This document shows positions 6,970 through 10,370 of a stretch of 64,000 nt of DNA, one piece after another. The notes below the pieces were generated by a model. That model worked only from the letters and a program-made list of their open reading frames with translations, made no database searches and was not told the origin of the DNA. A program made the translations under genes and the position numbers. The DNA is taken from contig BOKP01000001.1 in assembly GCA_016861045.1 (NCBI GenBank), forward strand, positions 995,529 to 1,059,528. Reading direction: 5' to 3'. The first letter of the stretch is position 1. The number at the start of each line of letters is the position of its first letter. This DNA is from Actinomycetes bacterium (lineage in GTDB: Bacteria; Actinomycetota; Thermoleophilia; Solirubrobacterales; 70-9).

Positions 6970-6988
6970 ACGTGCTAGGGTGGCGCCG

Positions 6989-8482
6989 ATGCTCATCCGC
7001 GCGCTGCTCGCCGCTTCCGCCCTGATCGCCCTCGCGCTCCCGGCCGCGGCCACGGCCGAAAAGCCCGAGCCGCCGAACGTCGTCGTGATCATGAGCGACG
7101 ACCAGGACTTCCGCTCGATGTCGGCGATGCCGATGACGCGGCGCCTGATCGCGAACGCGGGCACCCGGTTCGACCGGAGCGTCGTCAACTATCCGCTCTG
7201 CTGCCCGTCCCGAGCGACCTTCCTGACCGGGCAGTACGCGCACAACCACGGCGTCCTCTGGAACAACTGGCCCTTCGGCGGCTACCGGATGCTCGACGGC
7301 AGCGAGACCCTTCCCGTCTGGCTCGGTCGCTCCGGCTACCGGACGATCCACATCGGCAAGTACCTGAACGAGTACGGCGAGGAGGACCCGACGGAGGTGC
7401 CGCCGGGGTGGGACGACTGGCACGGCGGGGTCGACCCCTCGACCTACGACTACTACGGGATGACGATCAACCACAACGGCAGGCTGAAGACCTACCCGCG
7501 GACCGAGCGCAACTACTCGACCGACGTCTACACGCGCCTCGCCGATCACGCGATCCGCGACGCCTCGAAGTCGGGCAAGCCGTTCTTCATGAGCCTGGCG
7601 CCGAACGCGCCGCACACCGTGGCGGTCAGCTCGGGGGCGACGATGGAGGGCACGCCGGCGTTGCCGCCGCCCCGCTACGCCGACGTCTACGCCGACCGGG
7701 AGATGCCGATCTACCCGAACTTCAACGAGGCCGACATCTCCGACAAGCCGACCACGCTGTCCGCGTTCTTCCCGACCCAGATGACCGAGGAGCAGGCGCT
7801 GCAGCTGCAGGAGCACTGGCGCGGGCGGATGGGCTCGCTGCTCGGGGTCGACGACATGGTCAAGGAGGTCGTCCGCAAGCTCCGGCGCACCGGCGAGTTC
7901 AAGAACACCGTGATCGTCTACACCTCCGACAACGGCTGGATCCTCGGCGAGCATCGCCTCCGCGACCCGATCACCGAGGACGGCAAGGCGGCCGGGGTCA
8001 AGTTCGTTCCCTACGAGGGCTCCTCGCGGGTACCGCTGATGATCGAGGGCCCGGGCTTTCCGGCGGGGAGGCGGATCAAGGGGGTGGTCAGCAACGTCGA
8101 CCTGGCGCGGACGATCGTCGACATCGCCGGCGCCCGCTCCGAGGTCGGGCTGAAGCTGGACGGGATCTCGCTGCTCGATGCCGTTCGCAAGCCGAAGGCC
8201 CTCGCCGACCGCGGCGCCCTGATCGAGACGGCGGTGAACCCGCGCGGCGTCCCGCCCTACATCGCGGTCCGCACGAAGCGCTACAACTACGGCCTCCAGG
8301 CGGACGGCCAGGAGGGCCTCTACGACCTCAAGCGCGATCCGTGGGAGCTCGAGAGCGTCCACGAGGATCCGCGCTACGACCGGATCAAGGCGATCCTGCG
8401 CACGGCCGCCGAGGACTTCGCCGAGTGCGCCGGGGCATCCTGCCGCAAGCCGGTGCCGCCGCTGCCGCAGCCGGGTCGCTGA
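6989..8482 (+). CDS. Secreted arylsulfatase-type sulfatase
   Basis: A 497-aa sulfatase-fold hydrolase with a signal peptide (MLIRALLAASALIALALPAAATA). Metal-site aspartates appear in IMSDDQDF (about 35-41), and the formylglycine signature C-x-P-S-R is present as LCCPSRATFLTG, so C71 would be the residue oxidised by the formylglycine-generating enzyme. Later landmarks are SLAPNAPHTV, YTSDNGWILGEHRL and DLKRDPWELESV. It should cleave sulfate esters outside the cytoplasm; the substrate is not predictable. TAGGGTGG at 6976-6983 favours ATG 6989 over GTG 6980. A downstream sulfatase-maturing gene is not seen in the window. Confidence 0.9.
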   Translation: MLIRALLAASALIALALPAAATAEKPEPPNVVVIMSDDQDFRSMSAMPMTRRLIANAGTRFDRSVVNYPLCCPSRATFLTGQYAHNHGVLWNNWPFGGYRMLDGSETLPVWLGRSGYRTIHIGKYLNEYGEEDPTEVPPGWDDWHGGVDPSTYDYYGMTINHNGRLKTYPRTERNYSTDVYTRLADHAIRDASKSGKPFFMSLAPNAPHTVAVSSGATMEGTPALPPPRYADVYADREMPIYPNFNEADISDKPTTLSAFFPTQMTEEQALQLQEHWRGRMGSLLGVDDMVKEVVRKLRRTGEFKNTVIVYTSDNGWILGEHRLRDPITEDGKAAGVKFVPYEGSSRVPLMIEGPGFPAGRRIKGVVSNVDLARTIVDIAGARSEVGLKLDGISLLDAVRKPKALADRGALIETAVNPRGVPPYIAVRTKRYNYGLQADGQEGLYDLKRDPWELESVHEDPRYDRIKAILRTAAEDFAECAGASCRKPVPPLPQPGR

Positions 8483-8518
8483 TCCCCCGGCCCGGGCAAT
8501 CCTGACCCTGACATGCAG

Positions 8519-8532
8519 GGTTGAGATGACCC
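8519..8532. repeat. 14-bp repeat GGTTGAGATGACCC, copy 1
   Basis: The sequence GGTTGAGATGACCC occurs here, between the sulfatase and the permease leader, and again exactly at 63870-63883 near the window end. An exact 14-mer of mixed composition in two intergenic regions is unlikely to be chance. It may be a mobile-element end or a dispersed regulatory site. Confidence 0.6.
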
Positions 8533-8544
8533 GGTGGGGCGGCG

Positions 8545-8612
8545 TCCGCTACGGTCCCGTCCGGTGCGCCGGGAAGCCTGGTCGGCAAGTGGCCATGTCG
8601 ACCCCTGACCAA
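8545..8612 (+). promoter_or_regulatory. Structured leader RNA, candidate nhaA-I-like (Li+/Na+) riboswitch
   Basis: The 150-base leader of the NhaD/ArsB-like permease contains nested complementarity: CCGG (8561-8564) with CCGG (8569-8572) around TGCG, and GGTCG (8580-8584) with CGACC (8599-8603) around a GGC/GCC-containing loop. The run CGCCGGGAAGCCTGGTCGGC followed by GTCGACCCC resembles, from memory, the nhaA-I motif reported as a lithium-responsive riboswitch class ahead of cation/proton antiporters. The adjacent gene type fits. Without a covariance search the assignment stays tentative. Confidence 0.45.
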
Positions 8613-8632
8613 AGCCCCGGCCCCGACCGGCG

Positions 8633-9892
8633 ATGGCTGTAGCCGTCGCGACGTTCCTGCTCGCGCTCGCGCTGATCGCGAGCGAGCGCCTGCACCGGAC
8701 GAAGGTGGCCCTGCTCGGCGCCGCGATCGCCGTCCTCTTCGTCCCCGGCTTCGGCCAGGAGGGCGCTGTCGCCGCGATCGACTTCAACACGATCGGGCTC
8801 CTCGCGGGGATGATGATCCTCGTCCACCTGACCCAGCAGAGCGGCGTCTACGACTACATCGCGATCCGCGCCGGTCAGCTCTCGCGGGGCGAGCCGTTCC
8901 GGGTCGTCCTCAGCCTCGCCTGCACGACGGCGCTGCTGTCGGCCTTCCTCGACAACCTGACCACGATCCTCCTCGTCGTCCCGATCACCTTCCTGCTCGC
9001 GGACGCGCTCGACGTCGACCCGATCCCGCTGATCGTGATCGAGGTCATGGCCTCGAACATCGGCGGAACGGCGACCCTGATCGGCGATCCCCCGAACATC
9101 ATCATCGCCGGCGCCACCGGGCTCAGCTTCAACGAGTTCATCGCCAACCTGGCGCCGGTCGTCGTCGTCACCTTCGCGGTGGTGATCGCCGCGCTCTACG
9201 GCTACTACCGCCCGCGCCTCCGGATCGAGGAGGGCAAGCGGGCGCACGTGATGGAGCTCGACGCCCGCGCCGCGATCCGCGATCGCGACGAGCTCCGGCG
9301 CACCGTCCCGGTGCTGGCCCTGACCGTGCTCGCCTTCTTCCTCCATCAGCCGCTCCACATCGAGCCGGCGACGGTCGCCCTCGCCGGCGCGTCGGTCGGG
9401 CTGCTGGTCACCCGAGTGCCGCTCGAGCAGGCGCTGTCCCGGATCGAGTGGCCGACGCTGTTCTTCTTCGTCGCGCTGTTCGTGATGGTCGGGGCGCTCG
9501 AGGAGACGGGGGCGATCGGCCACGTCGCCGACGCGGTCGGGGACGTGACCGGCGGGGACCGGACCACGGAGCTGATCGGCGTCCTCTGGATCGGCGGGAT
9601 CGGGTCGGCGATCGTCGACAACATCCCGTTCACGACGGCGATGATCCCGGTCGTGAGCGAGCTCAACGAGACGGGCGACGCCGCCTACTGGTGGGCGCTC
9701 GCGCTCGGCGCCTGCTTCGGCGGCAACGCGACGATCATCGCCGCCGCGGCGAACGTCGCAGCCGCCGGCCTCACCGAGCGCGCCGGCCACCCGATCGGCT
9801 TCACGTCCTTCCTCAAGATCGGGATACCGGTGGCCGTTGCTTCGCTTCTGATCGCGACCGGCTACGTCCTGCTCCGCTACGTGGTGGTATAG
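8633..9892 (+). CDS. NhaD/ArsB-like (SLC13/citrate-transporter superfamily) membrane permease
   Basis: A 419-aa integral membrane protein with about 11-12 hydrophobic segments. LLAGMMILVHLTQQSGVYDY, AFLDNLTTILLVVPIT, SNIGGTATLIGDPPNIIIAG and the repeated half GSAIVDNIPFTTAMIP and ACFGGNATIIAAAANV are the paired re-entrant motifs of the ArsB/NhaD ion-transporter superfamily. Members extrude arsenite or exchange Na+ for H+. No ArsR, ArsC or other arsenic gene is near, and the leader resembles a cation riboswitch, so Na+/Li+:H+ exchange is the better guess. The next gene encodes a CBS-domain protein only 4 bases away, suggesting a regulatory partner. Confidence 0.88.
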   Translation: MAVAVATFLLALALIASERLHRTKVALLGAAIAVLFVPGFGQEGAVAAIDFNTIGLLAGMMILVHLTQQSGVYDYIAIRAGQLSRGEPFRVVLSLACTTALLSAFLDNLTTILLVVPITFLLADALDVDPIPLIVIEVMASNIGGTATLIGDPPNIIIAGATGLSFNEFIANLAPVVVVTFAVVIAALYGYYRPRLRIEEGKRAHVMELDARAAIRDRDELRRTVPVLALTVLAFFLHQPLHIEPATVALAGASVGLLVTRVPLEQALSRIEWPTLFFFVALFVMVGALEETGAIGHVADAVGDVTGGDRTTELIGVLWIGGIGSAIVDNIPFTTAMIPVVSELNETGDAAYWWALALGACFGGNATIIAAAANVAAAGLTERAGHPIGFTSFLKIGIPVAVASLLIATGYVLLRYVVV

Positions 9893-9896
9893 GGCC

Positions 9897-10370
9897 ATGC
9901 CCGACTCGATCGTCCGTACCGTGATCCGCGAGGTCGAGCCGCTCGAGGCGGACGAGCTCGTAGGCGGCGCGGCGCGGCGCGTCCTCGACAGCGGCCTGCC
10001 GGCGCTTCCCGCGGTCGAGGCCGACGGTCGCTTCGCCGGGATCTTCGGCGAGCGCGAGTTCATGGCCGCGCTCTTCCCGGGATACGTCGGCGAGCTCGGC
10101 TCGGCGGCGATGGTCCGGCGCTCGATCGACGATGCGATCGACCGTCGCCTCTCCTGCCGGGAGGAGCCGATCCGCGACCACCTGACCGTCGACCACGTCG
10201 TCGTCGGGGACGACTACTCCGACACCCAGCTCGCCGAGATCTTCCTCCACCACCGCGTCCTCATCGTTCCGGTCGCCTCCGCGGGAAGGGTGCACGCGGT
10301 CGTCACCCGCTCCGACTTCTTCGCCGAGCTGCTCGGCAAGTTCGAGGAGGCGACGGGCCCGGGGACCTGA
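9897..10370 (+). CDS. CBS-domain protein, probable partner of the adjacent permease
   Basis: A 157-aa cytoplasmic protein with tandem CBS motifs: the first covers VLDSGLPALPAVEADGRFAGIFGEREFMAALFP in successive parts, and the second VDHVVVGDDYSDTQLAEIFLHHRVLIVPVASAGRVHAVVTRSDFF. CBS pairs (Bateman modules) bind adenine nucleotides and gate transporters or enzymes. It starts 4 bases after the permease stop, which indicates co-translation and a joint function. I infer that it senses a nucleotide and modulates the permease; nothing in the sequence shows which nucleotide. Confidence 0.88.
   Translation: MPDSIVRTVIREVEPLEADELVGGAARRVLDSGLPALPAVEADGRFAGIFGEREFMAALFPGYVGELGSAAMVRRSIDDAIDRRLSCREEPIRDHLTVDHVVVGDDYSDTQLAEIFLHHRVLIVPVASAGRVHAVVTRSDFFAELLGKFEEATGPGT

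Follow-up and report, generated by a model that had tools for sequence, protein, structure and literature searches.

A conserved 25-nt RNA hairpin ahead of actinobacterial cation-transport genes, a possible sodium or lithium riboswitch

A 25-nt hairpin was found in the leader of a permease operon in the window (the whole 64,000-nt stretch of Actinomycetes bacterium DNA that was analysed) and, with nearly the same sequence, ahead of cation-transport genes in many other actinobacteria. It is very probably a real and widespread cis-regulatory RNA of these genes, uncatalogued within our scans. Computation here established four properties, namely an RNA stem, conservation across the phylum, association with a set of genes and an enriched downstream complement that abuts the Shine-Dalgarno (SD) sequence. 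The hairpin may act as the aptamer of a small riboswitch for an alkali cation.

Results

The element occupies positions 8563–8587 of the forward strand, as do all features described below for the window, and follows the consensus GGNG-N-GCCG-GGAAGNCUGGU-CGGC-R. Model R1, built on the element, found this site and no other in the window genome at E ≤ 0.01 (E 8.1e-7, 43.6 bits). Its stem P1 is formed by GCCG (8568–8571) and CGGC (8583–8586), both strands being supported by conservation and by a stem permutation test. The 11-nt loop GGAAGNCUGGU (8572–8582), in which N is C in the window, is conserved in the site profile. At the base of P1 a further pair covaries; it is C at 8567 with A at 8587 in the window and mostly U–G or C–A in the site profile. 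The stem is preceded by the conserved GGNG (here GGTG, 8563–8566), the transcript 5′ end as predicted from the −10 spacing only.

In Pfam the permease gene (8633–9892) falls in the CitMHS family (E 2.1e-83), ArsB and NhaB matching less well; the top NCBIfam score was for MamN, under that family's cut-off, ahead of ArsB and NhaD. We predict that it is a cation/H+ antiporter. The gene for a CBS-domain protein (9897–10370, CBS match) starts 4 nt 3′ of the permease stop. Among the matches listed, NhaA was not found in the window genome at E ≤ 1e-30, and the permease may be used there in place of NhaA. Directly upstream of the operon lies a sulfatase-family gene (6980–8482, Pfam). A strong hairpin is predicted at 8484–8538, between the stop codon of this gene (8482) and the permease promoter, and is possibly the sulfatase gene terminator.

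Upstream of the element the window carries a −10-like box, TACGGT (8550–8555). The same arrangement recurs: TANNNT starts 17–19 nt 5′ of GCCGGG in 149 of 236 non-redundant sites, all with GGNG, that were kept for the site profile after removal of near-duplicates above 85% identity. From this spacing transcription is expected to start at or beside GGNG, and the hairpin probably lies at the very 5′ end of the mRNA.

The element is present in 80 of the 296 sampled genomes of the phylum. The pattern CGCCGGGAAGNCTGGTCGGC with at most one mismatch, a search biased toward C before GCCGGG, was found in 81 of the 296, and the reversed control gave four matches (control counted by eye). With model R1 at E ≤ 0.01, matches came from 104 of 396 genomes of the phylum, some dozen of which gave weak matches only. 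Closer to the window, the permease occurs in 22 of the 61 genomes searched (the window's own and 60 relatives). Five of these 22, the window genome included (G000, G001, G002, G015 and G056), have GCCGGGAAGNCTGGTCGGC directly 5′ of it; in G005 the motif stands 5′ of an nhaA that is itself ahead of the permease, and in G007, one of the 22, a contig end cuts the upstream region. A scan of named genomes gave at least 119 matching stretches. The 80 with a listed name are from Actinobacteria (Streptomyces, Mycobacterium, Arthrobacter, Nocardia and others), with the exception of two Chloroflexi bins, one unclassified bin and one Mesorhizobium. The Mesorhizobium match falls within an open frame and looks like chance. 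In one Chloroflexi bin (L230) the hairpin is 5′ of a Na+/H+ exchanger-like gene, which would be a case beyond the actinobacteria if the contig has been binned correctly. No exact match to the element was found in viral contigs. The hairpin occurs at least eight times in one genome of 9.7 Mb (G185), where two clusters of some 4 kb (L097 and L098) contain three copies apiece along with STAS, NhaA and CPA1 genes. Sites with less than 45 nt upstream and locus L034, a duplicate of L138, were left out, and all these counts are inflated by related sequences despite the identity filters.

The downstream gene was read at 244 sites, of which the phylum sample with the relatives supplied 114 and the named records 130. 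The first gene encodes NhaA at 136 sites, a CPA1 antiporter at 14, MrpA at 11, a CBS protein at nine and an SLC13-type permease at eight. Single or paired sites precede a P-type ATPase, an H+-pyrophosphatase, TrkH, TrkA_N and a Na/Ca exchanger, and CPA2, DUF2254 and an ABC ATPase are other rare first genes. An obvious tie to cations is lacking for a hydrolase (4 of 244), a PPDK-like protein (3), STAS (3) and a CRP-like regulator (2). A further 27 first genes are unassigned, and ten fall into two clusters without a Pfam match. It is important to note that these labels come from automatic reading-frame choice and clustering in which only cluster representatives were scanned, and that they include errors: L064, apparently an NhaA site, went into the unassigned group, and at L278 the permease is some 600 nt downstream. 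The representative of one hairpin-linked family, seen at L153 (861–2261, reverse strand) and seven similar sites (8 of 244), has no match in Pfam or NCBIfam; this family is a candidate cation transporter. Viewed from the gene side, and among the matches listed, the element stands no more than 800 bp 5′ of 62 of 150 NhaA genes. Within this listing the same placement is seen for 62 of 110 elements, of which 103 came from the stem-free loop search described below and seven from model R1. Recurrent linkage to one physiological gene set, as looked for in a riboswitch, is thus observed.

The sequence-only reading had regarded the joining of permease and CBS protein under such a leader as a new gene association. 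The association is not confined to this locus: the element also stands 5′ of CBS-permease and CBS-NhaA operons elsewhere. A relative of the window permease follows the CBS gene at six of the seven sites of the first CBS group, CPA1 at 4 of 14 and NhaA at 4 of 136 sites, counts made on downstream sequence that is often short. In G037 (L141 and L142) relatives of the window CBS protein, 41 and 45% identical to it, are encoded between the element and nhaA, which suggests CBS control of both transporter types. As CBS joins both permease and NhaA operons, the pairing in the window is one form of a recurrent module.

Evidence for the stem comes from a search of the 296 phylum genomes in which only GGNG, the loop GGAAGNCTGGT and the final purine were fixed. 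It returned 139 matches, as compared to 19 for the reversed control (rows counted by eye), and 97 of the 139 have the canonical GCCG/CGGC stem. In six of the remaining 42 the stem differs yet is fully Watson–Crick: GTCG/CGAC in four, GCTG/CAGC in one and GGCG/CGCC in one. Permutation of the 3′ halves gave a mean of 0.72 complementary stems, and the value of six was reached once in 20,000. nhaA is downstream of five of the six sites, and the sixth has no assigned gene. Four of the 36 non-complementary matches were inspected, and two (L289 and L290) lie within long GC3-rich reading frames; L291 and L292 are likewise in open frames, but less clearly. The permutation of 3′ halves is the unselected test: the 62-row alignment contains complementary-stem sites only, and its 100% pairing is due to that selection.

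The pair at the base of P1 was read in 104 sites, a subset drawn from the 114 phylum-sample sites, ten of which lack GGNG. It is T–G in 48, C–A in 27, A–A in 10, A–G in nine, C–G in two and other in eight, and the T–G and C–A forms are both present within nine families (counted by reading match tables). In RNA, U–G and C–A wobble pairs have a near-identical shape. The element is a conserved structured RNA with covariation, another property looked for in a riboswitch. Minimum-energy folding was uninformative as proof of structure, given z values for the window leader of −2.45 (8540–8650), −1.27 (8483–8640), −0.54 (8563–8635) and +0.29 (8563–8604); in a folding comparison of six stretches, the one from L080 did not include the element.

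The sequence-only reading was right in the kind of object that it proposed, a structured leader RNA ahead of a probable cation-transport operon, and partly right about its paired arms. GGTCGGC (8580–8586) is complementary to GTCGACC (8597–8603), with one G–U pair, as it had said; its other arm, CGCCGGGAAGCC (8567–8578), pairs otherwise, in that the GCCG within it (8568–8571) pairs with CGGC (8583–8586). CGGC belongs to both helices, so P1 and the GGTCGGC/GTCGACC helix exclude each other. The same reading had named absence of an Rfam hit together with absence of conserved pairing in relatives as what would speak against it; the first was found, and the second was not, as the paired bases show compensatory changes.

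The 3′ half of the hairpin, CUGGUCGGC (8578–8586), overlaps P1 and is complementary to downstream sequence in the pairing tests. Near-duplicates above 70% identity were removed for these, which kept 229 of the 244 sites, 223 of them with the canonical stem. Over the 229 sites the downstream complement of CUGGUCGGC beats shuffled sequences with a mean z of −0.67 (s.e. 0.07). Pairing of the 5′ half, GCCGGGAAG, with downstream sequence is absent (mean z 0.03, 229 sites), and that of GGNG is marginal at most (mean z −0.15). More specifically, an SD can be recognised at 170 sites, and at 82 of these a complement of CUGGUCGGC abuts it; none of about 150 permuted arms reaches this number (mean 18, maximum 72). 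Anywhere in the leader, the real arm finds a complement at 132 of 223 sites and permuted arms at a mean of 65, with 2 of about 150 equalling the real value. Of the 229 leaders, 52 contain the word CCGACC between +20 and +75 and five between +120 and +175. Other complement words are without enrichment: GCCGA is found 39 times vs 37 farther downstream, and GACCAG 19 times vs 19 for its reverse. The SD-abutting complement is absent at 88 of the 170 SD sites, and none of the 11 MrpA sites has it. No SD can be recognised in the window leader, where CCGACCGG (8623–8630), an alternative partner of CUGGUCGG, ends two bases 5′ of the ATG, and GUCGACC (8597–8603) is the alternative partner of GGUCGGC.

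Scans of known RNA families did not return the element. At Rfam gathering thresholds the whole window yielded nothing but a tRNA. The sequence-only reading had likened the leader to the nhaA-I class, reported to sense Li+, and had proposed a search with the nhaA-I and other covariance models. That search, run with cmscan at E ≤ 10 over 8300–8800 and 8545–8645, gave no significant match: nhaA-I, nhaA-II and Na+-I were all absent, and the assignment to nhaA-I was wrong. The element did not reach the gathering score of nhaA-I (RF03057, 37 bits) or nhaA-II (RF03038, 70.4 bits), and genome-wide searches with 150 of 1590 and 150 of 2785 candidates scored, respectively, did not list it either. For Na+-I (RF03071, 40.5 bits) the gathering score was likewise not reached, and the genome-wide match was only elsewhere (E 3.08). 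On the strength of the Rfam scans, membership in these three classes was rejected. Several faint matches were rejected as chance: Chloroflexi-1 (20.3 and 17.3 bits vs a gathering score of 80), Guanidine-I (10.5 vs 63) and mir-598 and Burkholderiales-2 (weak, far below gathering) over the window leader. Among 33 further loci scanned at E ≤ 1 no convincing match lay at the element, and radC at L053 (29.3 bits vs 40) was likewise taken as chance.

Discussion

The element most probably is a cis-acting hairpin at the 5′ end of monovalent-cation transporter mRNAs and would serve as the aptamer of a small alkali-cation riboswitch. Without ligand, CUGGUCGGC would pair with its complement beside the SD or start region, which in the window would be CCGACCGG or GUCGACC, and translation would be low. 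At a high concentration of the cation, most likely Na+, the loop and P1 (8568–8571 with 8583–8586) would fold, the downstream sequence would be freed and the exporter would be made. The hairpin and the SD-abutting helix are mutually exclusive, which suggests that the SD is masked without ligand and freed with it. In this scheme we infer the start site, the direction of switching, the sensing of a cation and the identity of that cation. The element is most likely a translational ON switch, if it is a switch, and the sensing of a ligand is rather probable. Na+ or Li+ is a tentative choice of ligand. A hairpin of 25 nt is very small for an aptamer. The complete reading is a putative, previously undescribed Na+ (or Li+) riboswitch class, phylum-wide in actinobacteria, with a 25-nt hairpin at the mRNA 5′ terminus as aptamer, which would control NhaA, Mrp, CPA, SLC13-type and other cation transporters and, in some genomes, several operons; we give it somewhat less than an even chance.

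A protein could take the place of the small ligand. An actinobacterial RNA-binding protein that steers translation or decay in salt stress might recognize a hairpin this short, with its asymmetric loop that hardly varies, and the mixed set of downstream genes, with STAS and CRP-like regulators among them, would fit such a target. The alternative helix next to the SD fits a self-contained switch instead, and we regard the protein-bound leader as unlikely.

The tight tie to the −10 box is also compatible with a protein operator or with an effect at initiation. An operator in DNA, bound by a transcription factor and overlapping the start site, would account for the near-fixed spacing (149 of 236 sites); GCCG...CGGC is an inverted repeat, and paired changes alone might preserve operator symmetry. 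The base of P1 argues the other way, since its main forms, T–G and C–A, do not make a palindrome in DNA. The 11-nt centre also lacks symmetry, and the complement beside the SD lies at variable distance, so that an operator is improbable.

The known classes accompany genes of the same kind: nhaA-I (Li+-I) lies in 5′ leaders of cation-transporter genes, nhaA among them, the DUF1646 motif (Na+-I) in leaders of diverse Na+ transport genes and nhaA-II (Li+-II) in the nhaA leader. The nhaA-I consensus segments GGGUGC and UGGUCGGG (UGGUCGG-like) recall GGUG and CUGGUCGGC of the element, a likeness that is only a lead. The architectures differ. nhaA-I has two hairpins over 55 model positions, and P1 and P2 with its conserved P1 base and P2 loop were not found here, where one hairpin covaries; Na+-I is built of P1 plus P2, and the nhaA-II model spans 84 positions. 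With no match at E ≤ 10 in scans of 501 or 101 bases, a divergent nhaA-I or Na+-I riboswitch missed by Rfam is very improbable. In the accessible text of PMC9646797, translational control is proposed for nhaA-I, nhaA-I and nhaA-II are reported from Proteobacteria, and nhaA-II from Gammaproteobacteria; that of PMC9337991 describes Na+-I as an ON switch for Na+.

In Streptomyces a STAS gene has as its leader the dauA motif, described as a junction of three stems with 57 members (PMC11109978, accessible text), and 3 of our 244 sites are also 5′ of STAS. The motif and the hairpin may overlap; an Rfam scan of the three STAS loci (L097, L098 and L251) was without a match. No nhaA-linked actinobacterial element is described in the accessible parts of PMC11109978 or PMC8632094. 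A literature search that covered few subscription papers found no description of the element, which may have been published elsewhere.

A translated leader peptide acting as a short attenuator has a negligible chance: the window has an in-frame GTG start (GTG CGC CGG ... TGA, 8564–8608), but neither the frame nor its start is preserved from site to site, the GGAG and GGCG forms lack that GTG and nearly all positions are fixed regardless of frame.

As a putative riboswitch, the hairpin makes a good candidate for a salt sensor of a new type that is built into the mRNA. The accessible text of PMC9337991 and PMC9646797 places the Na+ and Li+ riboswitch classes that it describes in other phyla. The element marks candidate genes of a sodium regulon across Streptomyces, Mycobacterium and their relatives. 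Its presence also predicts cation/proton antiport for permeases with uninformative names, the SLC13-type gene of the window among them, and the element links a CBS protein to both transporter types. The 25-nt RNA lends itself to immediate probing. If it is true that the hairpin alone binds the cation, it would be among the smallest aptamers.
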